From: Plastoroseomonas hellenica
Lineage (GTDB): Bacteria; Pseudomonadota; Alphaproteobacteria; Acetobacterales; Acetobacteraceae
DNA length: 64,000 nucleotides
Direction: 5' to 3'
Assembly: GCF_018129085.1 (NCBI RefSeq)
Contig: NZ_JAAGBB010000001.1
Location: forward strand, 62,001-126,000
How positions within the stretch are numbered: position 1 is the stretch's first letter; each line of letters starts with the position of its first letter. The position numbers and the translations under genes were made by a program. Below the pieces are notes generated by a model. It was not told the origin of the DNA. It searched no databases and saw nothing but the letters and a program-made list of their open reading frames with translations. Below, one piece after another: positions 24,100 to 40,010 of the stretch.

Positions 24100-25743
24100 A
24101 TGACCGAAGCCTTCGATCCGATCACGCTAGAGATCTACTGGAACCGCCTGATCTCCGCCGCCGACGAGGCCGCGACCGGGCTGCTGCGCACCGCCTTCTC
24201 CACCATCGTGCGCGAGTCGAACGACTTCGCGACCGTGCTGATGGACCGGCGCGGCGAATCCGTCGCCGAGAACACCGGCGGCCTCGCCTCCTTCTCCTGC
24301 ATCCTGCCGCGCACCACGAAGGCCTTTCTGGAGAAGTTCCCGCTGGAGACCTGGAAGCCCGGTGACACCGTCATCACCAACGATCCCTGGATCGCGACCG
24401 GACATCTGCCTGATTTCACCGTGGTGACCGGCATCTTCCATCGCGGCCGGCTGGTCGGCTTCGCCGGATCGATCTCCCACTCGCCCGACATCGGCGGCTC
24501 GCTCTGGGCCGCGGATTGCCGCGAGATCTTCGAGGAAGGCATCCGCATCCCGATCACCCATCTGCTGCGCGAAGGCCAGTGGAACGAGGCGATGCTGGAA
24601 ATCCTGCTCGGCAATGTGCGGGTGCCGCGCCAGGTGCTGGGGGACCTGCAGGCCCAGGTGGTGGCGAACGAGGTCGGTGCCCGCCGTATCGCGGAATTCC
24701 TCGATGATACCGGCCTCGACGACCTCGAAGGCCTTTCGGCCGCCTTGCAGGAACGCACTGACCGCGCCATGCGCCGCGCCATCGCCGAACTGCCCGATGG
24801 CACCTATGCCGCGGAGATCGGCGCCGACGGCTTTGATGCGCAGAAGACCCTGATCGCCTGCACCGTCACCGTGCGCGGCGACACCATGCAGATCGACTAC
24901 ACCGGCACCTCGCCGCAGATCGACCGCGGCATCAATTGCCCGATGAACTACACCCACGCCTATTCGGTCTACCCAGTGAAATGCGCGCTGGATCCCTTCA
25001 CGCCGCGCAACGAAGGCTCCTACCGCGCCATCACGGTGACGGCGCCGGAGCGGTCGATCCTGAACCCGCTCTACCCCGCGCCAGTCAGCGCACGGCAGCT
25101 TACCGGCCATCTGCTGGCGGGTGCGATCTACAAGGCGCTGGCGCCTGTCATGCCGGAGAAGATCATCGCCGAATGCGGCGGCGCGCCGACCATGCGCGCT
25201 CTGTTCAGCGGCGCACGGGCCGATGGCGACAGCTTCTCCCAGGTGCTCTTCGCCAGCGGCGGCATGGGTGCGGCGCCGCACAAGGATGGCATGGCGGCGA
25301 CCGCTTTCCCGACCAATGTCGGCGCCGGCAGCATCGAAGCCTATGAGAGCGTGGCGCCGATCACCGTCTGGAAGAAGCGGCTGCGCCAGGATTCCGGCGG
25401 CGCCGGCCGTTTCCGCGGCGGCCTCGGCCAGGAGGTGGAACTGGAGATCCGAACCACCACGCCCGCCCGCCTTTCCCTGCTGTCTGATCGGCATGAGCAT
25501 CCGGCGAGCGGCATCCTCGGCGGGGAGGCGGGCGGGCCTTCTGTCGTGCGCTTCGCCGACGGCAGCAAGCCACATCCGAAATCCCGCACCACGGTGCCGC
25601 CGGGCGCGCGGCTGACGCTGCTCTATGCCGGCGGCGGCGGCTATGGGCCGCCGCGGGAGCGCGACCGTGACGCGGTGCGCGCCGATCTCGCCGATGGCTA
25701 CATCTCCCCGGGCGCCGCCCGCGATACCTACGGGCTGGAGTGA
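24100..25743 (+). CDS. hyuB: Hydantoinase B/oxoprolinase family protein
   Basis: A 547-residue HyuB subunit. With HyuA it hydrolyses cyclic amides such as N-methylhydantoin or 5-oxoproline using ATP, in the cytoplasm. Typical segments are the N-terminal DPITLEIYWNRLISAADEAA, NDPWIATGHLPDF, the HSPDIGGS segment, GINCPMNYTHAYSVYPVKCALDPFTPRNEGSYR and GAGRFRGGLGQEVEL. Length is normal for the B subunit. It starts 11 nt after the aminotransferase and runs into hyuA. Confidence 0.93.
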   Translation: MTEAFDPITLEIYWNRLISAADEAATGLLRTAFSTIVRESNDFATVLMDRRGESVAENTGGLASFSCILPRTTKAFLEKFPLETWKPGDTVITNDPWIATGHLPDFTVVTGIFHRGRLVGFAGSISHSPDIGGSLWAADCREIFEEGIRIPITHLLREGQWNEAMLEILLGNVRVPRQVLGDLQAQVVANEVGARRIAEFLDDTGLDDLEGLSAALQERTDRAMRRAIAELPDGTYAAEIGADGFDAQKTLIACTVTVRGDTMQIDYTGTSPQIDRGINCPMNYTHAYSVYPVKCALDPFTPRNEGSYRAITVTAPERSILNPLYPAPVSARQLTGHLLAGAIYKALAPVMPEKIIAECGGAPTMRALFSGARADGDSFSQVLFASGGMGAAPHKDGMAATAFPTNVGAGSIEAYESVAPITVWKKRLRQDSGGAGRFRGGLGQEVELEIRTTTPARLSLLSDRHEHPASGILGGEAGGPSVVRFADGSKPHPKSRTTVPPGARLTLLYAGGGGYGPPRERDRDAVRADLADGYISPGAARDTYGLE

Positions 25744-25748
25744 TCGGC

Positions 25749-27851
25749 ATGGCATCCGGGACTGCGACCGCCCGCATCGGCATCGATGTCGGCGGCACCT
25801 TCACCGATCTCGTGCTGCACGACGCGGCCCGCGACATCACCCATACCGGCAAGCTGCTGACCACGCCGGACGACCCGAGCCGCGCGATCATCGACGGCAC
25901 CGTGCGCCTGCTGGAGGAGACCGGGCTGACGCCGGCCGACCTGCACAGCGTGATCCACGGCACCACGCTGGTGACCAACACGATCATCGAACGCACCGGC
26001 GCCACCGTCGGCTTGCTCACCACTGAGGGCTTCCGCGACAGCATCGAGATCGGGCGCGAGACGCGCTACGACCTCTATGACCTGTTCCTGGAGACGCCGA
26101 CCACCCTGGTGCCGCGCCGTCGCCGGCTGGAGGTCCCGGAACGCATCGGCGCCGATGGCGATGTGTTGCTGCCGCTCGACGAAGCCGCGGTCGCTACCGC
26201 CGCCCGCCGGCTGGTGGAGGAGGAGAAGGTGGAGGCGATCGCCGTCGCCTTCCTGCATTCCTACCGCGACGCCCGGCACGAGAAGCGCGCCGGCGCCGTC
26301 ATCAACGCGCTCTACCCGGCGCTGCCGCTTTCGCTCTCGGCCGAGGTGGCGCCGGAGATCCGCGAATACGAACGCGCCAGCACCGCCTGCGCGAATGCTT
26401 ATGTGCAGCCGCTGATGGCCCGCTACCTCGATCGGGTCGAGGCGGCGTTGATCGAGCGCGGCTTCCACGGTCGTCTCTACATCATGCTCTCGGGCGGCGG
26501 CATCACCACGGTGCGGGAGGCCAAGGCCTATCCGATCCGCCTGATCGAAAGCGGGCCCGCGGCGGGCGCCATGGCCTCCTCCTTCATCGCCAGGATGGCG
26601 GGGCTGGAGCGGGTGGTCTCCTTCGACATGGGTGGCACCACGGCCAAGATGTGCCTGGTCGAAGGCTACGAACCAAACCACAAGTTCGATTTCGAGGCCG
26701 GGCGTGTCCGCCGTTTCCAGAAGGGCTCCGGCCTGCCGCTGAAGGTCTCGGTCGTCGACATGATCGAGATCGGCGCCGGCGGCGGCAGCCTGGCACGCGT
26801 CGATCCGGCCTCCGGCCTGATGAAGGTCGGGCCGCGCAGCGCCGGCGCCATGCCGGGCCCGGTCTGCTATGGCCGCGGCGGCACGGAGCCGGCGGTGACC
26901 GACGCCGACCTGGTGCTTGGCCGGCTCGATCCGGCCTATTTCCTCGGCGGTGAGATGAAGCTCGACCCGGACCGAGTGACCCGCGCCTTTGCCGAACGTA
27001 TTTCGGCCAAGATCGGCGTCGATGCGGAGCAGGCGGCACTCGGCGTGCAGCGCATCGTCGATGAGACGATGGCGGCCGCGACGCGCATGCACCTCGCCGA
27101 GAAGGGCAAGGATCCGCGCCGCTTCACCATGATCGCCTTCGGCGGCGCCGGCCCGGTGCATGCCTGGAACCTGGCGCGGCTCCTGAAGATGCGGCGCGTG
27201 GTGGTGCCGCTCGGTGCCGGCGTTGCCTCCGCGCTCGGCTTCCTGGTGGCGCCGCCCGCGACGGACATGGTGCGCAGCCATGTCGCGCGGCTGGAGCGCC
27301 TCGATTGGGATGCGGTCAGCGCCCTCTTCGCGGAAATGGCCGCGGAAGGCCGCGCGCTGCTGACCGAGGCGGGGGCGGCGGAAGGCGCGATCAGCTTCCG
27401 CCCGGTCGCCGAGATGCGCCATGTCGGCCAGGGCTTCGAGATACCGGTGCCGCTGCCGTCGATGTCGCTCTCCGCCGCCGACCTGCCGGTGATCCGCGAG
27501 GCTTTCTTCGCTGCCTATCGCGACCGCTTCGAGCGCAGCATGGAGGACAGCCCGATCGAAGCGCTGAGCTGGCGCCTGGCCTGCGCGGCGCCGGGCCAGC
27601 ACATCGACCTGGGTGGCGCGGTGAAGACCAAGCCGGGCACCGGCGGGGCCGTGCCCCGCGCCACGCGGCGCGTGCTGTTCGAAGGCGTGGGCTGGCAGGA
27701 CTGCCCGGTCTATGACCGCTACGCGCTGGCGCCCGGCGCCGCCTTCGCTGGCCCCGCCCTGGTGGAGGAGCGCGAATCCACCTGCGTCGTCGGTCCCGGC
27801 AGCAAGGTCCATATCGATCGCTTCCTGAACCTCGTCATGGACCTGGAGTAG
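25749..27851 (+). CDS. hyuA: Hydantoinase A/oxoprolinase family protein
   Basis: A 700-residue HyuA subunit with an actin-like ATPase fold. The phosphate-1 loop is RIGIDVGGTFTDLVLHD, then HGTTLVTNTIIERTGA, IMLSGGGITT, ESGPAAGAMAS and FDMGGTTAKMCLV. It energises ring opening together with HyuB. ATG 25749 with GGAG upstream is preferred; a GTG at 25740 overlapping the hyuB stop is also in frame. A and B subunit genes are in BA order within the aminotransferase operon. Confidence 0.93.
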   Translation: MASGTATARIGIDVGGTFTDLVLHDAARDITHTGKLLTTPDDPSRAIIDGTVRLLEETGLTPADLHSVIHGTTLVTNTIIERTGATVGLLTTEGFRDSIEIGRETRYDLYDLFLETPTTLVPRRRRLEVPERIGADGDVLLPLDEAAVATAARRLVEEEKVEAIAVAFLHSYRDARHEKRAGAVINALYPALPLSLSAEVAPEIREYERASTACANAYVQPLMARYLDRVEAALIERGFHGRLYIMLSGGGITTVREAKAYPIRLIESGPAAGAMASSFIARMAGLERVVSFDMGGTTAKMCLVEGYEPNHKFDFEAGRVRRFQKGSGLPLKVSVVDMIEIGAGGGSLARVDPASGLMKVGPRSAGAMPGPVCYGRGGTEPAVTDADLVLGRLDPAYFLGGEMKLDPDRVTRAFAERISAKIGVDAEQAALGVQRIVDETMAAATRMHLAEKGKDPRRFTMIAFGGAGPVHAWNLARLLKMRRVVVPLGAGVASALGFLVAPPATDMVRSHVARLERLDWDAVSALFAEMAAEGRALLTEAGAAEGAISFRPVAEMRHVGQGFEIPVPLPSMSLSAADLPVIREAFFAAYRDRFERSMEDSPIEALSWRLACAAPGQHIDLGGAVKTKPGTGGAVPRATRRVLFEGVGWQDCPVYDRYALAPGAAFAGPALVEERESTCVVGPGSKVHIDRFLNLVMDLE

Positions 27852-27861
27852 GCGCGCCGCC

Positions 27862-29166
27862 ATGGCCGGGCCGCTCGATGATCCGGCGCCGCTGCCCGCC
27901 GTCTATCGCAGCCGCTCGCCCGCGGAGCCGCCGGCACCGCCGCTCGAAGGCGACGCCACGGCGGATGTCGCGATCATCGGCGGTGGCTTCTGTGGCCTGA
28001 GCGCCGCGCTGCACCTCGCGGAAGCCGGGCTTGCCGTGGCGCTGCTGGAAGCACGCGGCATAGCCTCCGGCGGCAGCGGCCGCGCCTTCGGCCAGGTCGT
28101 GCCCTACGCCAAGCATGGCGAGCCGCATCTCCTCGCGCATTTCGGGGAAGCGGCGGGACTGCGCCTGATCGTGGCACTCGCCCAGGGTCCGGACCTGGTC
28201 TGGGATCTGATCGATCGCCACGGCATCGCCTGCGACGCGGTGCGCAACGGCCTGCTGTTTGCCGCGCATGTGCCCGCCGCCGAGGCCGGCCTCGAAGCCC
28301 GCGCCGCCTTCTGGCAGGCGCGCGGCGCGCCGGTGGAGATGCTGGACGCCGCACGCACCGCCGAACACATCGGCAGCCTGCGCTACAGCCGGGCGCTGCT
28401 CGACCGGCGCGGTGGGCACATCAACCCGCTGGCCTATGCGATCGGTCTCGCGCAGGCCGCGGCGAAGGCTGGCGCCCGTCTGCATGGCGACAGCCTCGCC
28501 ACGTCGCTGGTGCGGGAAGGCGAGGGCTGGCGGCTGCAAACGGCACGCGGGTCACTTCGCACGCGGCACCTGGTGATCTGCGGCGGGGCGTATTCGGACG
28601 ATCTCTGGCCGGGGCTCCGCCGCAGTATCCTGCCGATCCGCGCGCATCAGCTCGTCACCGCGCCGCTATCGGACAATCTCCGCGCCGGCATCCTGCCGCA
28701 GGGCCAATCTGTTACCGACACGCGGCGGCTCTATTCCGGCCTCCGGATGCTGCCGGGCGGCCGGATGCATCTGAGCGTGGATGGTTCCGGCTTCGGACCC
28801 TCGGTGACCTATCGCGAGAAGGCCGCCGAACGCTTGCGCGCCCTCTTCCCTGAGATCGGCGACCCTGTGTGGGAAGAAAGCTGGACCGGCTGGGTGGACA
28901 TGTCCGCCGATCAATACCCGCATCTGCACCGCCTGTATGACACCGCCTGGGCGGCGATCGGGCTCTCGGGGCGCGGCATTGCCTTCGGCACGCTGCTGGG
29001 ACGGGAGATCGCGCGCCGCATCGCGCAGCCGGAGCACCCGGCGCTGTTCATGCCGGTGACACCGCTGAAGCCCATGGCCTTGCGCCCGGTTGCCGAGCCG
29101 CTGGTTGCCGCTTTGATGGCCTGGTACCGGCTACGTGACCGCGCCGAGCTTGGCGGCAAGGCTTAG
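27862..29166 (+). CDS. FAD-dependent amine oxidoreductase (DAO family)
   Basis: A 434-residue flavoprotein of the D-amino-acid oxidase/glycine oxidase-like family. The Rossmann dinucleotide motif is VAIIGGGFCGLSAALHLAEAG near 35-55, with an acidic residue ending the second strand (LLEARG). A second FAD contact is the C-terminal AIGLSGRGIAFGTLLGREIA. The N-terminal extension before the FAD motif and the overall pattern resemble gamma-glutamylputrescine oxidase (PuuB)-type enzymes. It probably oxidises an amine or amino-acid product of the hydantoinase pathway. Last gene of the operon, followed by a strong hairpin. Confidence 0.9.
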   Translation: MAGPLDDPAPLPAVYRSRSPAEPPAPPLEGDATADVAIIGGGFCGLSAALHLAEAGLAVALLEARGIASGGSGRAFGQVVPYAKHGEPHLLAHFGEAAGLRLIVALAQGPDLVWDLIDRHGIACDAVRNGLLFAAHVPAAEAGLEARAAFWQARGAPVEMLDAARTAEHIGSLRYSRALLDRRGGHINPLAYAIGLAQAAAKAGARLHGDSLATSLVREGEGWRLQTARGSLRTRHLVICGGAYSDDLWPGLRRSILPIRAHQLVTAPLSDNLRAGILPQGQSVTDTRRLYSGLRMLPGGRMHLSVDGSGFGPSVTYREKAAERLRALFPEIGDPVWEESWTGWVDMSADQYPHLHRLYDTAWAAIGLSGRGIAFGTLLGREIARRIAQPEHPALFMPVTPLKPMALRPVAEPLVAALMAWYRLRDRAELGGKA

Positions 29167-29220: not shown

Positions 29221-29559
29221 TTACTGCACCGCGATGCCGTTGCCGCTGACAGTCACCGTGCTGACAGCGCAGAGATCGACGCCACGGCGCTCGAGTTCAC
29301 GGCCATTGGCAAAGACCACCTTGAAGTCATAGTTGCCGCCCGGGCTCGGGCGGAAGTCGACCGAGTTGCCCGGCGCCAGGACGTTCTGGCCGAGACGGTC
29401 GGGGCCCCAGTTCGTCAGGCGCGTCGGGTTGAAATAAAGCTCGTTCACCACCGCGTTCGAACGGTTCGCGATAGTGAAGCTGGTGTCGCATTGCGCGAAT
29501 GCCGGAGCGGAGGCGACGCCGCACAGAATGGCGGCCGAGAGCACTGCACGACGAAACAT
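29221..29559 (-). CDS. Small secreted protein of unknown function
   Basis: A 112-residue exported protein. A clear signal peptide (MFRRAVLSAAILCGVASAPAFA, cleavage before QCDTS) precedes a compact domain with SFTIANRSNAVVNELYFNPT and NWGPDRLGQNVLAPG. The domain ends in RRGVDLC, giving a likely disulfide between the first and last Cys. This 'WGPDRLG...L.PG' arrangement is shared by a group of uncharacterised small alphaproteobacterial exported proteins. ATG 29559 is used because GGAG lies 6 nt upstream of it; an ATG four codons earlier is less likely. It stands alone. Confidence 0.82.
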   Translation of the reverse strand: MFRRAVLSAAILCGVASAPAFAQCDTSFTIANRSNAVVNELYFNPTRLTNWGPDRLGQNVLAPGNSVDFRPSPGGNYDFKVVFANGRELERRGVDLCAVSTVTVSGNGIAVQ

Positions 29560-29654
29560 CGAATTCTCCATGGTGGACCGCGCGACACCGTGCGGGCGAC
29601 GGACCCTAGGCGGAGTTCATGCCGGAATGGTTAAGCGTCCGCGGATCGCGACGT

Positions 29655-31973
29655 TCACCGCGATGATCGGTGCTCGCCCGCCCGTGCCGCCTGGATCGCC
29701 GCCCAAACCTTGGCTGGCGTCGCCGGCATGTCGAGGGTCCGCACGCCGAGCGGCGCCAGCGCGTCCAGCACCGCATGCATTACCGTCTGTGGTGCGCCGA
29801 TGCAGCCGGCCTGCCCGGAACCCTTCACCCCGAGCGGGTTCGACGCGGTCGGCACGCCGGCGAAGGTGACCGCGAGGTCCGGCAGATCCTCCGCGCGCGG
29901 CAGGCAATAATCCTGGAAGGACGCGGCCAGGGGCTGCGCGCTGTCCGCGTCATAGGTGACTTCCTCCAGCAGCGCCTGGCCGATCCCCTGCGCGAGCCCG
30001 CCCTGGACCTGGCCGCGGGTCAGCATCGGATTCACGAGTGTGCCGTAGTCATCGACGGCAGTGTAGCGCAGCAGCCGCACCAGGCCGGTTTCCGGATCGA
30101 TCTCCACCTCCGCCACATGGCAGCCATTCGGGAAGGTGATGAGGTCGAGCGGGCTGTCGATTTCGGCATCGATGCTCTCGCCCGCTTCCGCCGCGGCGCG
30201 CGCGACGTCGAGCAGCCCGATGTCGCGCGTCTCCCCCGGCACACCGAAACGCCCGTCACGGAATTCGAGTGACGCTTCCTCGGTCTGCAGGAGCTGCGCG
30301 GCGAGGCGCTTCGCCTTGGCGATCGCGGCATCCATCGCCTGGACCAGCGCCGCGCCGGCCATGTGCAGCGACCGCGCGCCACCATGGCCCTTGCCGCGCG
30401 CCACGGAGCGCGTGTCGGCCTGCACCAGCCGGAACGCCGCGTGCGGCAGGCCGAGGTAGTCGGCCGCGATCTGCGGGAAGCTCGTCTCGTGCCCCTGGCC
30501 GTTCGATTGCGTCCCGGTCGCGAGTGCCACCTGCCCATCCGCCTCGAAGCGCACCGCGGCCCATTCGCCGGGCGCGCCGCGCGCCGTCTCCAGGAAGCAG
30601 GCGAGGCCGAAGCCGCGCAGCTTGCCCTGCGCCTCCGCCGCCGCGCGCCTGGCGGCGAAGCCGGCCTGATCGGCGGCGTCCAGCACCGCGGCGAGATTGC
30701 CCTTCGCGTTGCCGCAGTCGATCGCCATGCCCATCGCGCTGCGATAGGGGAAATCCGCGATCAGGTTCAGCCGCCGCAGCGCCGCCGGATCGCGCCTCGT
30801 CTGCCGCGCGGCGAGGTCGATCAGCCGTTCGGTGACGTAATTCGCCTCCGGCTTGCCGGCGCCGCGATAGGCATCGATCGGCACGGTGTTGGTGAAGACG
30901 CCGCGCACTTCCATGCACACCGCCGGGATCGCATAGAAGCCGCCCATCGCGGTGCCGGGCGCATTGGTCGAGCTGCCGGGCCCGCTCGGCGAGAGGTAGG
31001 CGCCGAGATTGGCGATGGTGCGGACGTCGAGCGCCAGGATGCGCCCTTCGGCGTCCAGCGCCATCCGAGCCTCGGTGCGGTTGTCGCGGCCATGGGCGGA
31101 GGAGAGGAAATCCTCCGTCCGGCTCGAGCTCCAGCGCACCGGGCGCGCCAGCCGCCGCGCCGCGACCAGGAGCAGGACATATTCGGGATAGACGAAGTTC
31201 TTGGCGCCGAAGCCGCCACCGACATCGGGGGCCATGACGGTGAGGCGCTGCGGCGGGATGCGCAGGATGTGCTGCGCGAGCTGGTCGCGGATGCCATGGA
31301 CGCCCTGGCCGGTCAGCTCCAGCAGGAAATCGCCGCTGGCCGCATCATGGTAGGCGATGGCGGCGCGTGCTTCGATCGGTGCGGCGGCGACGCGGTTGTT
31401 TACCAGCGCGAGGGAGACGGTGGCGTGCGCCGCCGCGAAGCCAGCCTCTACCGCGGCCCGGTCGCCCTTGCGGAAGAGGTAGGAGAGATTGCCCGGCGCC
31501 TCGGGCCAGAGCTGCGGCGCATCTGGCGCCAGCGCGGCCGCGGCATCGGCGACTGCCGGCAGCGCCTCGTAGTCGACTGCGATGGCTTCGGCGGCGTCGC
31601 GCGCCTGCGCCGCGGTGTCCGCGACGACGAAGGCGACGGGGTCGCCGACATGGCGCACGATGCCGTCGGCCAGCGCGGGGCGCGACGGGATGATGATCGG
31701 CGCCACAGTCGCGACCGCCGCCACGCAGGGCAGATCGCCGATGCCTTCGGCGCGCAGGTCGGCGGCGCTCAGCACCAGCCGCACGCCCGGCATCGCCGCG
31801 GCCTCCGACAGGTCGAAGCCGATGATGCGCGCATGCGCGTGCGGGGACCGCAGCACCACGCCATGCAATGCGCCATCGGCTTGCATGTCGTCGACGTAGC
31901 GGCCGGCGCCGTTCAGGAAGCGCCCATCCTCCACCCGTCGGCGGGACTGGCCTTGCTCCAGGGATTTCTGCAT
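29655..31973 (-). CDS. Xanthine dehydrogenase-family molybdopterin-binding subunit, orphan, with Glu-to-Gln change
   Basis: A 772-residue molybdenum hydroxylase large subunit, the size of CoxL-type proteins. The N-terminal domain has GQSRRRVEDGRFLNGAGRYVDD, then LRSPHAHARI; the cofactor region has QGVHGIRDQLAQHI, GGGFGAKNFVYPEY and AYRGAGKPEANYVTERLID. The AYRGAG form, not AYxCSFR, argues against a true CO dehydrogenase. The C-terminal active-site segment reads GSGQAGCIG: Gln721 (codon 29811-29813, CAG) stands where the family usually has the catalytic Glu. No FAD or [2Fe-2S] subunit genes are nearby, so partners must be elsewhere. It lies 3 nt after an Ldh-type dehydrogenase gene. Substrate unknown. 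Confidence 0.9.
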   Translation of the reverse strand: MQKSLEQGQSRRRVEDGRFLNGAGRYVDDMQADGALHGVVLRSPHAHARIIGFDLSEAAAMPGVRLVLSAADLRAEGIGDLPCVAAVATVAPIIIPSRPALADGIVRHVGDPVAFVVADTAAQARDAAEAIAVDYEALPAVADAAAALAPDAPQLWPEAPGNLSYLFRKGDRAAVEAGFAAAHATVSLALVNNRVAAAPIEARAAIAYHDAASGDFLLELTGQGVHGIRDQLAQHILRIPPQRLTVMAPDVGGGFGAKNFVYPEYVLLLVAARRLARPVRWSSSRTEDFLSSAHGRDNRTEARMALDAEGRILALDVRTIANLGAYLSPSGPGSSTNAPGTAMGGFYAIPAVCMEVRGVFTNTVPIDAYRGAGKPEANYVTERLIDLAARQTRRDPAALRRLNLIADFPYRSAMGMAIDCGNAKGNLAAVLDAADQAGFAARRAAAEAQGKLRGFGLACFLETARGAPGEWAAVRFEADGQVALATGTQSNGQGHETSFPQIAADYLGLPHAAFRLVQADTRSVARGKGHGGARSLHMAGAALVQAMDAAIAKAKRLAAQLLQTEEASLEFRDGRFGVPGETRDIGLLDVARAAAEAGESIDAEIDSPLDLITFPNGCHVAEVEIDPETGLVRLLRYTAVDDYGTLVNPMLTRGQVQGGLAQGIGQALLEEVTYDADSAQPLAASFQDYCLPRAEDLPDLAVTFAGVPTASNPLGVKGSGQAGCIGAPQTVMHAVLDALAPLGVRTLDMPATPAKVWAAIQAARAGEHRSSR

Positions 31974-31976
31974 GGG

Positions 31977-32987
31977 TTAGCCGGTCGCCTCCTGCGTCAT
32001 CGCGAGCAGACGCTGATAGGCAGCGTCCGGCACCACGATGCCATCCCGGAGCGCCTGTTCCCGGCGCCGCTGGCGCGCCTCGCCCGGCAACCGCTCCGAC
32101 CCAGCCTCGCGGAGCGCCGCGACCAGGGCCGAAACACGGCCGGCAAATGCATCCCCGGCGCTGCGGGCCGGATCGATCAGCAACAGGAACTGCCCGGCAT
32201 TGCTCGTCTGTGCGCCGGGGAACTTAGCCGATTCATCCTGGAAGCCGAAGCGCCCGCCAGTGAGGGCGGCGGCCAGCACTTCGATCATGAAGGCGATGCC
32301 GGCGCCCTTGTGCCCACCGAAGGGCAGCAGCGCACCACCATCCAGGATCGCCGCCGGATCGGTCGTCGGCTTGCCCGCGGCATCAAGGCCGACGCCTTCG
32401 GGGACCCTGTGCCCCTCGGTCCTGGCCAGCAGCACCTCGCCCTGAGCGCGCAGGCTGGAGGCTTGGTCCCAGACGAAGGGCGGAGCATCGGCGCGGGGGC
32501 AGGCGAAGGCCATGGGATTGGTGCCGAGCACCTTGCGCTTGCCACCCCAGACCACGATCCGGCTGCGCGTGTTCACCACGGTCAGCGCGACCAGCCCCTG
32601 TTCTGCGAAGGGCTCCACGTCCGGCCAGAGGGCGGCGAAGTGATGCGAATCGCGGATGCAGATCGCCGCCATCCCGGCTTCGCGCACCGCGGCCAGGCCA
32701 GCCTCCCGCGCCGCCGCATGCGCCACCTGCGCGAAGCCGTTCCGCGCATCCACCATCACGATGGCCGGGGCGGGCCGCTCCACCACGGGCTCCGCGGTGC
32801 CATCGACCCAGCCGCTCTTCAAGGTCGCGATATAGCCGGGCATGCGCAGCAACCCGTGGCTCGCCGCGCCGTCACGCTCGGCGGCGGCGACCACGGCGGC
32901 AACCAGGACAGCGTTCCGGGCACTCATGCCGTGGCGGGCCAGCGCCTCCGCGATGAGGCCAGCCAGTGCCGCTTCGGTCAGGATCAT
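31977..32987 (-). CDS. Ldh/malate dehydrogenase-type NAD(P)-dependent oxidoreductase
   Basis: A 336-residue member of the YlbC/DpkA/malate-L-lactate dehydrogenase family, which reduces alpha-keto acids or cyclic imines such as piperideine-2-carboxylate and is not Rossmann-fold. Family segments: RDGAASHGLLRMPGY near 38-52, the catalytic His region IRDSHHFAALWPDVEPFAEQGLVAL, GGKRKVLGTNPMAFACPR and LPFGGHKGAGIAFMIEVL. Placed between a Bug receptor and the molybdenum subunit on the same strand. With the upstream FAD amine oxidases, it could reduce the imine or keto acid they make; this is inference. Confidence 0.9.
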   Translation of the reverse strand: MILTEAALAGLIAEALARHGMSARNAVLVAAVVAAAERDGAASHGLLRMPGYIATLKSGWVDGTAEPVVERPAPAIVMVDARNGFAQVAHAAAREAGLAAVREAGMAAICIRDSHHFAALWPDVEPFAEQGLVALTVVNTRSRIVVWGGKRKVLGTNPMAFACPRADAPPFVWDQASSLRAQGEVLLARTEGHRVPEGVGLDAAGKPTTDPAAILDGGALLPFGGHKGAGIAFMIEVLAAALTGGRFGFQDESAKFPGAQTSNAGQFLLLIDPARSAGDAFAGRVSALVAALREAGSERLPGEARQRRREQALRDGIVVPDAAYQRLLAMTQEATG

Positions 32988-33007: not shown

Positions 33008-33991
33008 TCATGGCATGCGGATGCCGCGGGCGCGGATGATCTCGCCCCACATGGCCGATTCCTCGGTGCGCAGCCGCTGGAACTCCTCTGCGGTCGATCC
33101 GATCGGGATGAAGCCGGAGCTGTCCAGCCAACCACGCCGCTCCGGCGCCCGCAGCCAGGTGACGACGGCGGCCTGCATGCGGTCCAGGATCGGCCGCGGC
33201 GTCCCAGCCGGTGCCAGCAGCCCATAGGCGGTGCTCGACTGGAAGCCGGGCAGCCCGGCGCCATCGAGGGTCGGCAGGCCGGGGAATTGCGGCGAGGGCT
33301 GCTTCGAGGTCACCGCGATCGCGCGCACATTGCCCGACTGCACAAGCGTGAGTGCGGTCGTCGTGTCCGCGAAATTGACCTGCACCTCCCCGCTCATCAG
33401 CGCCTGCGCGGCGGGTCCACCGCCGCGATAAGGGACATGCAGCATCGACAATCCGGTCATCGACATGAACAACTCCGCCGCCAGATGACTGGTGAAGCCG
33501 ATGCCGGCGGAGCTGAAGGAAAGCCGCTCCGGATTGCGCCGCACGTGATCCATGAAGCCGGCGAGATCGGTCACCGGCACGCTGCGATGCACGCAGAGCA
33601 CCTGCGGCGAGCTGGCGATCAGTGTGATCGGCGCGAAGGCGGCCTCCGGATCATAGGTGAGTGGGTAGAGATGCGGCGCGATCGCGTAGCTGCTGTTGGT
33701 GGAGGCCAGCAACGTATAGCCATCCGGCCGTGCCCGCGCGACCTGGCCGTGGCCGATGCTGCCGCCGGCGCCGGGGCGGTTGTCGATCACGAAGGACTGC
33801 CCGAAGACGCCGGTCAGATGCTGTGCCAAAGGACGCATTAGAGTGTCGGTGGAACCGCCCGGCGCCAGCGGCAGCACGATGGTTACTGGCCGCTGCGGCC
33901 AGGCGTCCTGCGCGCTGGCAAGGCGCGCGCGAGAGAGCGACGGCGCCGCAAGAAGCGCGGTGAGCAGCCGGCGTCGGATAGGGGAGGGCAT
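33008..33991 (-). CDS. Bug-family tripartite tricarboxylate transporter receptor
   Basis: A 327-residue periplasmic receptor. An RRRLL-containing signal ends near ASAQ; the mature start has WPQRPVTIVLPLAPGGSTD, the Bug signature. Later segments are SSAGIGFTSHLAAELF, HVPYRGGGPAAQALMSGEVQ and LPTLDGAGLPGFQSS. Third Bug gene of the window, again without TctA/TctB. It lies among amino-acid catabolic genes, 20 nt before the Ldh gene, so it may bind an amino or keto acid. The start at 33991 has only a weak ribosome site. Confidence 0.9.
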   Translation of the reverse strand: MPSPIRRRLLTALLAAPSLSRARLASAQDAWPQRPVTIVLPLAPGGSTDTLMRPLAQHLTGVFGQSFVIDNRPGAGGSIGHGQVARARPDGYTLLASTNSSYAIAPHLYPLTYDPEAAFAPITLIASSPQVLCVHRSVPVTDLAGFMDHVRRNPERLSFSSAGIGFTSHLAAELFMSMTGLSMLHVPYRGGGPAAQALMSGEVQVNFADTTTALTLVQSGNVRAIAVTSKQPSPQFPGLPTLDGAGLPGFQSSTAYGLLAPAGTPRPILDRMQAAVVTWLRAPERRGWLDSSGFIPIGSTAEEFQRLRTEESAMWGEIIRARGIRMP

Positions 33992-34094
33992 GTCGGGAAT
34001 TCCGTCGCGGGGCGTGGATGTCACAGTCGGTGGCCGCGACGTGGAGCCGCGGCGGCCTGGAGCAAGCACAGCTCGTGCCATCACGGACGCCGTT

Positions 34095-35381
34095 TCATGG
34101 TGAGGCGCTGGCCGTCTCTGATCGGCCGCCGCTGAAGCGCGACAGGCGGAATGGCGACAGGTCGAGATTGGTGGGCCGCCCGCTCACCAGCCCAGCGGCC
34201 AGCCGCCCGGTCGTGGCACCCCAGCTCAATCCCATATGGCCGTGACCGAAGGCATAGATGACGTTGCGGGCCGAGGAGGCGCGGTCGATCACCGGCAGGC
34301 TGTCAGGCAGGCTTGGCCGATGACCCATCCAGAAGCGATGGCCTTCGGTCTTCAGCCCAGGGATCAGCGATTGCGCGATGGTCATCAGATTGCGCGCCCG
34401 GTCCCAGTTCGGCGGCGCCGTCAGCCCCGCGAACTCCACGGTCCCCGCGAGCCGCAGCCCCTGCTCCATGGGCGAGAGCGCGAAGCCGCGCTCCACATGC
34501 GACATGCTGTGGCGCGGCATGATGCCCGGATCGGGCAGCATGACGTGGTAGCCGCGCTCGGTCTCCAGCGGCACCCGGTCGCCGAGGGCGCGTGCCAGCC
34601 GATGCGACCAGGCGCCGGCCGCCACCACCACCGCGGATGCGGGCTCGACATGGCCGTCGGCGCAGGCGACGCCACTCACCAGCGCGCCATGGTGGGTGAA
34701 GCCAGTGGCGGTGCCGGTCACTTCCCGGCCGCCGCGGGCACGGAACAGGGTGCGAAAGGCGGTCAGCAGCCGCAGCGGGTCGCCCACGGTCAGCCGGTCG
34801 AGGGAGGCGACGGCGAAGCCGATCGAGGACGCCAGCGCCGGTTCCTTGGCCCGGAGCGCTTCCCCCTCCAGCAATTCGTGGCGGAAGCCCGACTTGACCC
34901 GCAGCGACCAGCGCCAGCCTTCGGCTTCCCAGGCGGCGCGGGAGGCGTAGAGGCGCAGATGCGGGCCAGGTCGCAGCACGTCCTGTATGCCGGCCTCCTC
35001 GATCAGCGGCTGATAGTCGAGCGCGATCCGGTCGCAGAGCGCCGCCATGGCCGCGGAGATGCGCTCGACCTCCGACATGCGGCCGGCACGCAGGAAGCGC
35101 AGCAGCCAAGGTGTCAGGCGCGGCAGGTAGCGCAGCCGCAGCGCGAGCGGGCCGAGTGGATCGGCCAGCCAGCGCGGGAGCGCGCGGAGCACATGCGGGC
35201 CGGAGAGTGGCACGACCTCGCCCACCGCAAGATGGCCGGCATTGCCATAGGACGCCGCGCGCGTGGGGTCGCCGGGATCGAGCAGCACCACATCATGCCC
35301 ATCGCGCTGCAGATGCAGCGCGCTACCCAATCCGACGAAGCCGCTGCCGATGACGACGACCGGCGCCGAGGAGGCCATCAT
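34095..35381 (-). CDS. FAD-dependent D-amino acid dehydrogenase-like oxidoreductase (DadA-like)
   Basis: A 428-residue flavoprotein. The FAD motif PVVVIGSGFVGLGSALHLQRDGHDVVLLD is at the N-terminus, followed by SYGNAGHLAVGEVVPLS, a DadA-like segment, and a C-terminal VIYAFGHGHMGLSWGATTGRLAAGL. DadA enzymes oxidise D-amino acids at the inner face of the membrane. It overlaps the neighbouring FAD gene by 4 nt. Two adjacent amine oxidoreductases after an amino acid importer point to catabolism of an unusual (D-, N-methyl or opine-like) amino acid. Substrate unproven. Confidence 0.9.
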   Translation of the reverse strand: MMASSAPVVVIGSGFVGLGSALHLQRDGHDVVLLDPGDPTRAASYGNAGHLAVGEVVPLSGPHVLRALPRWLADPLGPLALRLRYLPRLTPWLLRFLRAGRMSEVERISAAMAALCDRIALDYQPLIEEAGIQDVLRPGPHLRLYASRAAWEAEGWRWSLRVKSGFRHELLEGEALRAKEPALASSIGFAVASLDRLTVGDPLRLLTAFRTLFRARGGREVTGTATGFTHHGALVSGVACADGHVEPASAVVVAAGAWSHRLARALGDRVPLETERGYHVMLPDPGIMPRHSMSHVERGFALSPMEQGLRLAGTVEFAGLTAPPNWDRARNLMTIAQSLIPGLKTEGHRFWMGHRPSLPDSLPVIDRASSARNVIYAFGHGHMGLSWGATTGRLAAGLVSGRPTNLDLSPFRLSRFSGGRSETASASP

Positions 35382-36541
35382 GCCTTGGGGCCGTCATCCG
35401 GCAGCGGTGTATTCTCGACGATGCGGCGATAGGAGAGGCGCGACAGGTCGATGGACCGGGAGCCGCCTTCGAGGATCATCTCCTTCACCGCCCGTCCCAC
35501 CGCCGGCCCATGCTGCAGGCCATGGCCGGAGAAGCCGGCGGCCACAATGAAGTTCGGCACCGCCGGGAAGCGGTCGATCACCGCATTGCCGTCCAGGCTG
35601 TTCATGTCGTAGTGCCCGACCCAGCCGCCCTTCTCCTTCACCGCTTCGAAGGCCGCGCTCTTCTCCGCGATCTGCGGCCAGAGGAAGTCGTTGAAGAGAT
35701 CGGGGTCCAGCGTCCAGTTAAAGCCGCGCGGCTCATCGAAGCGGGTATAGCCGGTGAGGTAGCCCTTCTGGTGCGGCCGGATCGCGAGGCCGGAGGCATG
35801 GCGCATCGCCGGAATGGTCTCGATCGGGTCGCGGGTGTCGAAGAAGAATTGCTGCCGGCGCATCGGCGCGATCGGCACCTGCATGCCGACCATGGCGCAG
35901 ATCCCGGCGGCCCAGCAATTCGCCACATTGACCAGGGTATCCACGGCGAGCGAGCTGCCGCTTTCAAGCCGCGCCGCCGTGACTTTGCCGTCCGCGACGT
36001 CGAGCCCGACGACACGGTCCTGCAGATAGGTGATGCCGCGCCCCTCGGCAGCCCTGCGGAAGCCCATCAGCGCGCCATAGGGGTCGATCTGACCATCGGC
36101 CGGCGACAGCGCAGCGGCATCGACATCGTTGAAATTGAAGGACGGGTAGCGCCGGCGCAGTGCCTCCCGGTCGAGCAGATGGACCTCGACGCCGAGCCGT
36201 CGCTGCATCGCCGCATTCGCTTCCAGCGCCGCGACGTCGGCGGCGCCGCGGACCTGATAGAGATAGCCAATGCGGCGGAACTGCGGATCGAATTCCACCG
36301 TGCCCCCGTTCACATGGGTCGCGAAATCCGAATAGACAGTATCGCCGTAGAGCGACATCGCGACATTCTCAGGCAGTGCGTGCTGCAGCCGAACGCCGCC
36401 GACGGCGCGCGGCGTCGCCGCGAACTCGTAGGTCGGGTCGGGCTCCACCACCACGACATCCGCCGCGGCGCCGGCCACCGCCAGGTGATAGGCGATGCTC
36501 GACCCCATGATGCCACCGCCGACGATGACGATCCGCTGCAT
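35378..36541 (-). CDS. FAD-dependent oxidoreductase, DAO family (sarcosine/dimethylglycine oxidase-like)
   Basis: A 387-residue flavoprotein distinct from its neighbour. FAD motif: RIVIVGGGIMGSSIAYHLAVAG, then VVVVEPDPTYEFAATPRAVGGVRLQ with the Arg/Gly segment typical of sarcosine oxidase beta and FOXRED1-like proteins. The substrate-side region has MRRQQFFFDT, and the C-terminal FAD contact is FIVAAGFSGHGLQHGPAVGRAV. It overlaps the ATPase stop by one base and the DadA-like start by 4 nt, so it is translated with the importer. Oxidation of an N-alkyl or secondary amino acid is plausible. Confidence 0.9.
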   Translation of the reverse strand: MQRIVIVGGGIMGSSIAYHLAVAGAAADVVVVEPDPTYEFAATPRAVGGVRLQHALPENVAMSLYGDTVYSDFATHVNGGTVEFDPQFRRIGYLYQVRGAADVAALEANAAMQRRLGVEVHLLDREALRRRYPSFNFNDVDAAALSPADGQIDPYGALMGFRRAAEGRGITYLQDRVVGLDVADGKVTAARLESGSSLAVDTLVNVANCWAAGICAMVGMQVPIAPMRRQQFFFDTRDPIETIPAMRHASGLAIRPHQKGYLTGYTRFDEPRGFNWTLDPDLFNDFLWPQIAEKSAAFEAVKEKGGWVGHYDMNSLDGNAVIDRFPAVPNFIVAAGFSGHGLQHGPAVGRAVKEMILEGGSRSIDLSRLSYRRIVENTPLPDDGPKA

Positions 36542-37374
36542 CAGCCTTGCTCCCTGGTGGTGAGGGCGAATGGCCCTGGTGGATCGTCGTGCATCTGCTC
36601 CGGCAGGCGAAACAGGGTATGGCTGCGCAGGAAGTCGCGGGTGCGCGGGCGCTGCGGGTTCAGCAGCACCTGCTGCGGGGTGCCTTCCTCATGGATGACG
36701 CCGTGCTCCATGAACACCACGCGGTCGGCCACATTGTAGGCGAAGCCGAGCTCATGGGTGACGATCAGCATCGTCATGCCATCCTCCCGGAGCTGCCGCA
36801 TGGCCAGCAGCACCTCGCCCACGAGTTCCGGATCGAGGGCGGAGGTCACCTCGTCGAACAGCATCATGGAAGGCTCCATGGCGAGCGCGCGCGCGATCGC
36901 GACGCGCTGCTGCTGTCCACCGGAGAGCTGCGCGGGATAGCTCCGCGCCTTCTCGAGGATGCCGACCTTCTCGAGATTGGCCGCGGCGACGCGGCGCGCC
37001 TCGGCCTCCGACAGGCCGCGCAGCTTCATCGGCCCGATCATGACGTTGCGCTCGGCGGTCATGTGCGGAAACAGGTTGAACTGCTGGAAGACCATGCCAA
37101 CGCGCATCCGGAGCGCCGAGAGTTCCCGGTTGGGGTAGCGGATGCGGCCGTCTCGGGCTTCCCGCCCAACCAGGCGGCCTTCCAGGTGGATACGCCCTGC
37201 ACCCGGCATCTCCAGGAAGTTGAGGCAGCGCAGCAGCGTGCTCTTGCCGGAGCCGCTGGCGCCCAGGATCACGACAGCTTCACCGCGCCGCACCGTCAGG
37301 TCGATGCCGCGCAGGACGTGCAGCGGACCGTAATGCTTGTGCAGGCCTTCGACGCGCAGGACCTCATCAGCCAT
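36541..37374 (-). CDS. Polar amino acid ABC importer ATPase (GlnQ/HisP family)
   Basis: A 277-residue ATPase with Walker [11 protein letters not shown]-loop [13 protein letters not shown], signature [15 protein letters not shown] and Walker [17 protein letters not shown]; the V-T-S-ALD form is diagnostic of the amino acid importers. A loop with [13 protein letters not shown] between Walker A and the Q-loop is slightly long, as in HisP. It overlaps the permease gene by 8 nt. Confidence 0.93.
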
Positions 37375-38029
37375 GGCGCGCGAGCCTCCGCTCCATCATG
37401 CCCGCGATCGCGCTGGTGGGCAGCAGCACCAGGATGAAGGCGGCGCCGACTGCGGTATAGGCCTCGATCGGGCGGAATTCCTGTTCGCTGAGCAGCTTGG
37501 CCGAGTAGAGCAATTCGGCATAGGCGATGGTGGAGGCGACCGAGGTGGTCTTCACGATCTCCAGCACCTGGTTGGTGAAGGCCGGCAGCACCCGTCGGAA
37601 GGCCTGCGGCAGCACCACATAGCGCATCGTCATGCCATGGCCGAAGCCGACCGCGCGCGCGCCATCCCATTGCCCCTTCTCGATCGAGGCAATGCCGCTG
37701 CGAAACACCTCCGTCAGATAGGCGCCGGCATAGAGAGAGGTCGCGATGGCGGCCGCGGCATAGGCGTTCGGTTGCACACCGGTCAGGATGGGGATCGAGA
37801 AATAGAGCCAGAAGATCTGCACCAGCACCGGGATGTTGCGGAAGAACTCGACATACCCGGTGCCGACGGCGCGCAGGATCGCGCTGCCGGACAGCCGCGC
37901 CGTGGCGCCGACGAGGCCGATCACCGTGCCGGCAACCAGGCTCACCACCGCAAGCCGCAAGGTGCCGAGCAGGCCCTGCAGGATGAAGTGGCGCTGGTCG
38001 ATCAGGAAGGCGAAATCCCACTCATGCAT
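37367..38029 (-). CDS. Polar amino acid ABC importer permease (HisM/GlnP type)
   Basis: A 220-residue permease. [35 protein letters not shown] and [47 protein letters not shown] (the EAA region) are the family hallmarks. It starts 6 nt after the partner permease. Confidence 0.92.
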
Positions 38030-38035
38030 CGGCGG

Positions 38036-38701
38036 TCACTCCGGCACCGCGACGCGCCGCTCAATGGCGCGCACGAGCCGGCTCACGCAGAAGATGGTGG
38101 TGAAGAAGAACAGCGCCACGATGGTGAAGGTCTCCATCGGGCGAAAGGTCTCGGAGGCGGCGCGGTTCGCCATCTGCACGATCTCGGCATAGGAAATCGC
38201 TGCGGCGAGCGAGGTCGCCTTGTAGAGTTCCGTGATACGGGTGAAGAAGATCGGGATCATTCGCCGCACCGCCTGCGGCAAGATGATGGTGCGCATGCGC
38301 GTGGCGCTTCCCATGCCGAGTGCGGTCGCCGCCTGCCACTGCCCGCGATCGACCGAGATAATGCCACCGCGGAACACCTCCGCCATATAGGCGCCGGTTT
38401 GCAGCCCGAGCGCCAGCGTGACTGCCGTGTGACCGGCGAAGTCGACGCCAGCCAGGATCGGGAAGGCGAAGAAGAACCAGTAGATCAGCACGATCGACGG
38501 TGCCGTGCGGAAGATGTCGGTGGTGATCGCCAGCAGCCAGGACAGCACCGGAATCCGCGCCAGCCGCAGCATCGCGACCGCGAGGCCGAGCGGCAGCGCG
38601 ATCAGCAATGCCGAGCCAGCCAGCCGAAAGGTGTTGGCGGCGCCTTCCAGCAACAGGTCGGAATGGCGGAAGACCGCGGCGAAATCCCATTCATAGGCCA
38701 T
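38036..38701 (-). CDS. Polar amino acid ABC importer permease (HisQ type)
   Basis: A 221-residue permease closely related to its partner. GAANTFRLAGSALLIALPLGL, FRTAPSIVLIYWFFFAFPIL and AEVFRGGIISVDRGQWQAATALGMGSATRMRTIILPQAVRRMIP are readable. Both begin with the same EWDFA motif, suggesting an ancient duplication. It follows the binding-protein gene by 15 nt. Confidence 0.92.
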   Translation of the reverse strand: MAYEWDFAAVFRHSDLLLEGAANTFRLAGSALLIALPLGLAVAMLRLARIPVLSWLLAITTDIFRTAPSIVLIYWFFFAFPILAGVDFAGHTAVTLALGLQTGAYMAEVFRGGIISVDRGQWQAATALGMGSATRMRTIILPQAVRRMIPIFFTRITELYKATSLAAAISYAEIVQMANRAASETFRPMETFTIVALFFFTTIFCVSRLVRAIERRVAVPE

Positions 38702-38716
38702 CCGCCCGATCCCCGC

Positions 38717-39601
38717 CTACCAGAGCTCCCGCTGGATCGGCGTTGCCTTCCCGGCTTCCAGGCCGCGGAAGACCATGAACTCGTCATAGATCTGCTGGGT
38801 AATGCCGCCATTGTAGAAATAGCCGACGCAGGTGTTCAGGTAGTTGGCCCAGCGCGTGTCCGTCTCCTTGCGTACCCCGGCGCCGGCGGGGACGGCGACG
38901 ATCGGGCGGGGCACCAGGCTCTTGCCGCGGCGCATGCGCGCGATGGTGAGGTCGACGGTCGGGCCGGTGGTGACGGCGATGTCGATGCGGTTCGACTGCC
39001 AGGACGCCATCAGCTCGCCGGTGGTCGGGTAGCGCTGGATGGCGGCGCGTGGCGCGAGCCGGGTCAGGGTCTGGTCGGTCGAGCTGCCGAGCGCGACGCC
39101 GACCCGCGCCGAAGGATTGTTGAGGTCGGTCCAGGTGGTGGCCGTCACGCTCTCCCGCGCCAGGCCGGCGATCGGGTACCAGAGGATGGGGGAGGGTACG
39201 AAGTCAACCGCCAGCGCCCGTTCCGGCGTCGGGTCCAGGATGAACATGGTGTCGATCTGGCCGGCCTGAAGCGCCGCGACCGCGGTGCCCCAGGTCACCT
39301 CCACCATCTCGAGCTGCACGTTCATCGCGCGCGCGATCAGTTCCCCGATGCGCGGGCCGATGCCGCGCCAGGTGACGTCGCCGACCCGCACGGCGCCGGG
39401 GGCGTCGCTGTTGGCGGTGTCCTTGTAGTACCAGGGCTCCGACAACGCCGCGCCGACGCGCAGCTTGCGGCCCTGCATAATGGTGTCCCAGGTCGAGGCC
39501 GCGGCCTGGGCGCGCACCAGGCGCGGGGCGGCCAGCGTGCCGAGCGTCGCCAGGCCGGCGGCGAGCCCTGGAAGCAGGCGGCGGGAAATGACGGGGTTCA
39601 T
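38717..39601 (-). CDS. Amino acid ABC importer substrate-binding protein (family 3)
   Basis: A 294-residue periplasmic binding protein. An SRRLLPGLAAGL signal ends near VRAQA. The mature domain has GRKLRVGAALSEPWYYKD, IDTMFILDPTPERALAVDFV and GVALGSSTDQTLTR, the typical family 3 pattern; the usual ligand Arg region is near LAPRAAIQRYPTTGELM. ATG 39601 follows AGGAG. It is the first gene of a long minus-strand series containing the importer, two FAD oxidoreductases and, further on, a Bug receptor and dehydrogenase. Confidence 0.9.
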   Translation of the reverse strand: MNPVISRRLLPGLAAGLATLGTLAAPRLVRAQAAASTWDTIMQGRKLRVGAALSEPWYYKDTANSDAPGAVRVGDVTWRGIGPRIGELIARAMNVQLEMVEVTWGTAVAALQAGQIDTMFILDPTPERALAVDFVPSPILWYPIAGLARESVTATTWTDLNNPSARVGVALGSSTDQTLTRLAPRAAIQRYPTTGELMASWQSNRIDIAVTTGPTVDLTIARMRRGKSLVPRPIVAVPAGAGVRKETDTRWANYLNTCVGYFYNGGITQQIYDEFMVFRGLEAGKATPIQRELW

Positions 39602-40010
39602 GGCGGTCGGCTCCTGCACGGGATGCGGATCGGTGAGAGCCTGGGGCAGCGCGGCAGGGTCGCCGGGGCGGGCGACAGCGTTCGGCTCCCGGAAGACCTT
39701 CAACGCCACCACACCCAAACCTGCCTGCGTCATGGAACCTCGCTGTCTGACCCTGGTGGCATGCCCATGGGGCGCGGCAACGACGGCACGCGGCACAACG
39801 GACATCCGGAGCAGGCTCGTTCGACCCGATCCTGGCGTAGACGGCGTTCCCTGGATCGCAACCGGCAGGCTGATCTGCTCTCGCAGTTCAGCGCGAGCAG
39901 GTTGCGTCCTGTGGTCAGGTTCCGGGTCGGAGCGCCGCGAGGGAAGCGGTGATTCCGGACGCGATGATATGATCGGGCCTCATACCGGCGCCGAAGCCGC
40001 GTCGGGTGCT
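39602..40010. other. 409-bp gap with one structured inverted-repeat element
   Basis: No gene is supported. It separates the LLM monooxygenase stop from the amino acid binding protein start, both on the minus strand, and so must hold the promoter of the importer operon. The only clear structure is the nested stem at 39857-39906. I see no convincing sigma-70 hexamers. Confidence 0.5.
39857..39906. promoter_or_regulatory. Nested stem-loop in the 409-bp gap
   Basis: An outer stem CGCAAC (39857-39862)/GTTGCG (39901-39906) encloses an inner stem CTGCTC (39875-39880)/GAGCAG (39895-39900), which can continue by two pairs past one mismatch to an 8-nt loop. It could terminate the LLM operon or act in the leader of the amino acid importer mRNA. 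No known riboswitch consensus was recognised. Confidence 0.35.

Follow-up and report, generated by a model that had tools for sequence, protein, structure and literature searches.

A clade of orphan CoxL-type molybdenum large subunits with glutamine at the catalytic glutamate position and fixed companion changes

A glutamate next to the molybdenum is described as essential in the xanthine oxidase enzyme family, and quinoline 2-oxidoreductase, whose large subunit QorL (1t3q) keeps this Glu, has its own S and M subunits. In xanthine oxidase, the residue is described as taking the proton of Mo-OH and then hydrogen-bonding the substrate (PMC3624778). In mouse AOX1, the Glu1265Gln variant kept 60% of its Moco and was inactive on all substrates tried (PMC2671166); a natural family with Gln at this place must therefore use another base, catalyze another reaction, or be inactive. 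Among CoxL sequences, form I, the true aerobic CO dehydrogenase (CODH), is defined by the Cys-containing motif AYXCSFR (PMC13203968), and form II is a putative aerobic CODH large subunit with the gene order coxSLM, whose function is described as still unsettled (PMC13240472, PMC13203968). Two further systems bear on the locus described here. In Sulfolobus tokodaii, GAOR2 and GAOR3 were shown to share one M/S pair between different large subunits, and GAOR2 keeps its catalytic Glu672 (PMC4726530). MhyADH of Alicycliphilus denitrificans, likened here by description and not by sequence, is a CODH/Xdh-like three-subunit molybdenum enzyme reported to oxidize a secondary alcohol (PMC4052635, PMC3692508), which suggests by analogy that chemistry besides hydroxylation is open to the family.

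We analyzed a 64-kb stretch of Plastoroseomonas hellenica DNA, referred to as the window, which encodes one such large subunit.

29655..31973, minus strand: orphan CoxL/XDH-type molybdenum-binding large subunit of the Gln clade, 772 aa (ORF, Pfam, alignment, AlphaFold2 model)
29811..29813, minus strand: codon of Gln721 (CAG) at the catalytic Glu site (alignments, codon reading)

The reading frame runs without a break, and all three large-subunit domains of the xanthine oxidase family (Ald_Xan_dh_C, MoCoBD_1, and MoCoBD_2) were matched above their Pfam cut-offs across residues 22–698. The AlphaFold2 model (pLDDT 90.3, pTM 0.90) has as its best PDB matches the large chains of CODH and quinoline 2-oxidoreductase over ~750 residues, with a TM of 0.91, Z of 50.5, and rmsd of 2.5 over 752 residues for the CODH large chains; the predicted fold is therefore that of the xanthine oxidase family and is intact. 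In the model, residue 721 directly precedes helix 722–742. The closest sequences of solved structure are the large subunits of CODH, quinoline 2-oxidoreductase, and 6-hydroxypseudooxynicotine dehydrogenase. QorL is ~35% identical over the whole length and shares the fold, but keeps Glu where the window protein has Gln; the archaeal GAOR2 large chain is about 31%–32% identical. None of the NCBIfam equivalogs (glyceraldehyde dehydrogenase alpha, CODH large, XdhA, and 4-hydroxybenzoyl-CoA reductase) scored above its curated cut-off (best 509 bits versus 790), and therefore the family models assign no named function. Form II CoxL is the nearest named sequence type: the window protein shares its AYRGAG core and has the CODH large-chain fold, but reads AYRGAGK rather than AYRGAGR (Lys in 72/72 of its clade), has Gln in place of Glu, and is encoded outside a coxSLM order, both in the window and in the examined flanks of 52 of 53 related loci. 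The Cys-containing form I motif is likewise replaced by AYRGAGK. By descent and fold, the protein is a variant of the xanthine oxidase family and not a standard hydroxylase, because the catalytic Glu is replaced by Gln721.

The original prediction, made from the DNA letters, had read Gln721 from the CAG at 29811-29813 and placed it where the catalytic Glu is expected, and both statements were confirmed. When aligned with five solved relatives (CoxL of three species, quinoline 2-oxidoreductase, and 6-hydroxypseudooxynicotine dehydrogenase), Gln721 faces the Glu of the G-x-G-E motif, or of its counterpart, every time; counted along the alignment, it corresponds to Glu763 of O. carboxidovorans CoxL. 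Homologs were collected from a species-genome scan (73 loci) and from overlapping samples of 397 family-group, 385 class, and 398 phylum genomes. Matches covering fewer than about 550 query residues were excluded. Of the 196 proteins that remained, 16 duplicated another across residues 31–700 and were merged with it, leaving 180 aligned sequences. Gln721 is present in 72/72 members of one clade and Glu in 108/108 of the others; two excluded C-terminal fragments, read separately, both carry Glu. In the window's own genome, all 14 further full-length matches carry Glu (partial matches L016–L027 lie outside this reading). Homologs were also found in 92 plasmid records, all below 60% identity (best 49.7%). 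The two groups overlap at about 51%–53% identity to the window protein, and therefore the residue tracks clade and not mere similarity. With columns 721 and 374 left out, a FastTree phylogeny groups the Gln proteins in a single clade of 72 (support 100) with one state change, and the nearest branch is a trio of Glu proteins (L032, L210, and L213). A subgroup trait, one of the three options first offered for the substitution, is thus established by the alignment to close homologs that had been suggested as a check. Sequencing error or recent mutation, which would have predicted Glu in all close homologs, and misalignment are practically excluded by these 72 distinct Gln sequences, which come from several bacterial families. 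Within the clade, mean pairwise identity is 60% (minimum 47%), 106 of 772 columns are invariant, and codon 721 is CAG in 66 members and CAA in six; codons 374, 465, 530, and 721 all vary synonymously. Invariant columns at this divergence, together with synonymous codon variation, argue for selection at the protein level. Searches of the open-licence PMC literature did not turn up a natural Gln at the place of the catalytic Glu, which is weak evidence of absence.

The substitution is accompanied by further changes, located at the following codons.

30852..30854, minus strand: codon of Lys374 in AYRGAGK, the invariant partner of Gln721 (alignment, codon reading)
30579..30581, minus strand: codon of Arg465 (72/72 in the clade; Gly in 63/86 near Glu relatives)
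30384..30386, minus strand: codon of His530, candidate replacement base (72/72 in the clade; 3/86 near Glu relatives)
30375..30377, minus strand: codon of Ala533 (72/72 in the clade; Ser in 76/86 near Glu relatives)
30285..30287, minus strand: codon of Gln563 (Glu in 84/86 near Glu relatives and in all five relatives of solved structure)

Lys374 occurs in 72/72 Gln proteins and 0/108 Glu proteins, where Arg is found in 91, so the pairing with Gln721 has no exception among the 180 sequences. Compared with 86 near Glu relatives, Lys374, Arg465, His530, Ala533, Gln563, and Gln721 are fixed in all 72 members, and Phe460 and His537 are present in 71. We also counted switches, defined as positions conserved in 90% of one group with a different conserved residue in the other. 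Going from the 60 Glu-bearing members of the surrounding orphan clade (described below) to the Gln clade, 135 of 182 conserved positions are kept and only three are switched: R374K, E563Q, and E721Q. The corresponding counts from 24 CoxS-linked proteins are 1/227 to the 60 orphan-clade Glu proteins and 8/227 to the Gln clade. In the alignments, then, amides replaced two acidic residues in a joint shift with one Arg-to-Lys exchange. By alignment, Lys374, Gln563, and His530 are equivalent to CoxL Arg391, Glu600, and Thr567, respectively; Arg391 stands three residues after Cys388, the Cu ligand of CoxL. His530 and Ala533 align with the GTYGSRS loop of CoxL, which presumably belongs to the cofactor site. 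The cofactor of the family is molybdopterin cytosine dinucleotide or a relative, with Mo=S; of the motifs at its site, GGGFG and AYRGAG show no variation in the Gln clade and GQGHET hardly any. Taken together, the consistent companion changes and the retention of these motifs argue for function.

The absence of an FAD or iron-sulfur subunit near the gene, also claimed from the letters, was borne out: no CoxS- or CoxM-like frames were detected in the 64-kb window. The suggested genome search for partners returned 18 Fer2_2 and 11 FAD_binding_5 matches outside the gene's neighborhood, and partners in trans are therefore available. Read by eye from the coordinates, each Fer2_2 gene adjoins another large subunit, and four large subunits are without such neighbors: the window gene and the Glu paralogs C30, C73, and C21, of which C73 sits near a contig end. 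In the wider sample, the examined flanks contained neither CoxS nor CoxM at 52 of 53 distinct Gln loci; only L314 differs, with a complete S-M-L operon of a distant type next door. Both were equally absent from the flanks of 39/39 Glu-bearing orphan loci, and both were found beside the large subunits of linked lineages. Flanks of up to about 10 kb were searched (much shorter in some loci), and the CoxM counts rest on a search with a true CoxM protein. The count of 53 omits L159 and L163, which duplicate L028 and L055. The set of 39 Glu loci was chosen by hand from the orphan clade (38 in the tree, L306 outside it) and omits L056 (3.3 kb), the own-genome loci (1.5-kb flanks), and L084 (unlinked, outside the clade).

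When linkage was mapped onto the tree, a clade of 132 (support 98), nested among CoxS-linked lineages, was unlinked wherever context was known, and the Gln clade lies inside it; therefore, on this tree, unlinking preceded the loss of Glu. The missing FeS and FAD neighbors are, by this sequence phylogeny, older than the Gln change. The orphan description accordingly holds for the gene's neighborhood and fails as a trait specific to Gln proteins, since the surrounding Glu lineages are orphans too. The rest of the orphan clade comprises 60 Glu-bearing CoxL-like proteins (for example L032, L035, L050, L073, and L195–L198). Unlinked genes outside the clade were L084, the second copy of L064, and the additional large subunit at L029, L031, and L092. 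In the last three, which are marine MAGs, the Gln gene (L029:7516-9879, L031:4585-6861, and L092:7529-9835) is divergent to this distant Glu-type large subunit, itself likewise without CoxS/CoxM, and the other side carries ABC transporter genes and a TenA-type gene (identified by scan in L029 and by cluster membership in the other two).

Partner supply was then considered at the genome level. Fer2_2 genes were present in 32/32 genomes tested, with Gln read or inferred from score. The nearest coxSLM set of the window's own genome, C27, has its own CoxL beside the pair. A C27-type CoxM match (E ≤ 1e-55) was found in 91 of 96 Gln family genomes versus 147 of the 301 remaining genomes (odds ratio 19 by Fisher's test, p 5e-18, uncorrected for phylogeny and genome size); Gln status was read directly in 53 of the 96 and inferred in 43 from a score of at least about 790 bits. 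Among the five exceptions, the C27-type set is cut by a contig end in G144 and G167, and the assemblies of G252, G267, and G370 hold only distant CoxM matches. At least one further CoxL-type gene was present in 25/25 Gln genomes searched (a 26th, G283, is not a Gln genome), and this gene could be the real user of CoxS-CoxM. Three genomes contain a CoxS-CoxM pair that lacks a neighboring CoxL.

L232:7381-8719 (G038): CoxS-CoxM pair without an adjoining CoxL
L303:7810-9272 (G470): CoxS-CoxM pair without an adjoining CoxL
L304:8159-9798 (G756): CoxS-CoxM pair without an adjoining CoxL

In G038, the pair sits between an AAA ATPase gene and a gene judged by eye to be CoxG-like, for which NCBIfam gave no match; CoxL is absent from the 16 kb read around the pair. 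All seven CoxL-type genes of this genome (E ≤ 1e-100 to C27 CoxL) are on other contigs, and a large subunit of more divergent sequence, accompanied by its own CoxS, is found ~145 kb off on the same contig as the pair. CoxL was also absent from the 16.5 kb read around the pairs of G470 and G756. Each of these genomes has two large subunits at E ≤ 1e-100: one Gln and one Glu orphan in G470, and in G756 one Gln protein and another whose residue was not read. The three pairs are candidates for shared electron-transfer modules, and their existence fits large subunits sharing one pair in trans. The arrangement resembles that of GAOR2/GAOR3 in that the large subunit genes lie apart from the M/S genes; an M/S pair without its own large subunit gene, as in S. 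tokodaii, was seen only in G038, G470, and G756. In MhyADH, unlike here, the three subunit genes adjoin one another. Sharing of CoxS-CoxM by the Gln protein itself is plausible, judging from these genome patterns.

The Gln gene is among the last of a tightly packed series of minus-strand genes, listed here in gene order.

38717..39805, minus strand: solute-binding protein family 3
38036-38701: second permease of the series, an ORF similar to that at 37367..38029, same cluster
37367..38029, minus strand: amino-acid-type ABC permease
36541..37374, minus strand: polar amino-acid-type ABC transporter ATPase
35378..36541, minus strand: FAD oxidoreductase (DAO), N-methyltryptophan/sarcosine-oxidase-like
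34095..35381, minus strand: FAD oxidoreductase (DAO), D-amino-acid-dehydrogenase-like
33008..34084, minus strand: TctC-type solute-binding protein, same predicted transcription unit
31977..32987, minus strand: Ldh_2 family dehydrogenase, 3 bases upstream of the Gln gene

On the plus strand beside this operon are an aminotransferase, HyuB, HyuA, and an L-pipecolate-oxidase-like protein. The HyuB/HyuA and L-pipecolate-oxidase-like DAO genes (24100-29166) are convergent with the Gln operon, and the nearest named models for HyuB/HyuA are caprolactamase subunits, below cut-off. Downstream of the Gln gene, 29221-29571 encodes a small 116-aa protein with a signal-like start, a relative of which is found near the Gln gene of L044. 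As a guess, the window locus could serve an amino or imino acid route. A single substrate or pathway for the whole clade was considered from gene context and dropped, as the neighbors fall into several unrelated settings, which among the listed loci include Ldh_2, a CoA-transferase pair with a DsbA-like protein, HyuA/B, a Bmp-type transporter, TenA, and allantoinase. Of 42 Gln loci compared, seven have a member of the Ldh_2 cluster no more than six genes upstream, and in four of them it is directly upstream. Because neighbors differ elsewhere, the guess for the window need not hold for the clade. At L189:3958-8760, a PuuE-type allantoinase (just below the NCBIfam cut-off) and HyuA/HyuB are directly downstream of the Gln gene.

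Gln cannot deprotonate Mo-OH; therefore, an active protein would need another base or a reaction without Glu-assisted Mo-O attack. Our main reading, with a probability of roughly 0.5, is that the Gln protein is a remodeled large subunit that acts as a guest in a shared molybdenum hydroxylase system. It would be, we infer, an active Moco-binding subunit of a conserved subfamily in which the active site has been rebuilt by E721Q, R374K, and E563Q, with Arg465, His530, and Ala533 as new invariant residues. This guest subunit would dock on a CoxS-CoxM pair encoded elsewhere, and the pair would pass on its electrons. Either another group would serve as base, His530 being the best candidate, or the substrate would be oxidized without Glu-assisted attack, such as through hydride abstraction from the carbon of an alcohol, amine, or imine. 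Judging from the operon, the substrate at this locus would probably be a transported amino or imino acid derivative. More tentatively, the Glu base may have been abandoned for a different molybdenum reaction, either dehydrogenation without oxygen insertion or a non-hydroxylating step, with the protein acting as one of several interchangeable large subunits on a common CoxS-CoxM module in Alphaproteobacteria.

The same residues could also belong to an ordinary hydroxylase whose base has moved, so that His530 or another new residue deprotonates Mo-OH for the water-derived hydroxylation of an N-heterocycle or aldehyde. The invariance of His530 and Ala533 in the clade and their alignment to the GTYGSRS loop are consistent with this idea, as are neighbors that handle ring amides or N-heterocycles: HyuB at 6/42 loci and HyuA at 5/42, the PuuE-type allantoinase of L189, and the TenA and NMT1/THI5-like genes of L029. 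We regard it as doubtful, although not implausible, in that the cofactor-site role of the loop is presumed and His530 also occurs in 3/86 near Glu proteins. The opposite possibility is a subunit that is inactive or lacks the cofactor and has been retained in a regulatory role, such as competition for CoxS-CoxM. The identical single change inactivates mouse AOX1 (PMC2671166), but the Gln clade keeps GGGFG and AYRGAG invariant and GQGHET nearly so, retains 135/182 conserved positions, and shows specific fixed companions of the substitution rather than scattered loss, so a pseudoenzyme appears unlikely. Of the other two options in the original prediction, changed chemistry is likelier and an inactive protein less likely, because the substitution is fixed and coupled amid an intact predicted fold and cofactor-site sequence. 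A molybdenum enzyme that catalyzes a non-redox reaction would need neither the CoxS/CoxM electron path nor the Glu base, which would account for the loss of the catalytic Glu and for 52/53 Gln loci being unlinked from CoxS/CoxM. However, Fer2_2 genes are present in 32/32 genomes tested, C27-type CoxM co-occurs with the Gln family, and Glu orphans of the same clade keep the catalytic residue yet are equally without linked partners; we consider this reading very improbable.

The remodeled guest subunit thus remains our preferred reading, and the Gln protein seems to be a functioning enzyme whose chemistry has changed, not the product of a broken gene. It is a conserved active-site variant of a known family, and its orphan state predates the variant. 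A conserved natural Gln family with defined companion changes makes the role of the glutamate testable through nature's own experiment and could yield a new molybdenum reaction. In a recent CODH survey, lone CoxL-like genes were attributed to incomplete genomes, a statement made of form I (PMC13240472). The CoxL-less CoxS-CoxM pairs suggest that in bacteria, as in Sulfolobus, a single electron-transfer module may serve several catalytic subunits; if such sharing is real, lone CoxL-like genes may often be functional.
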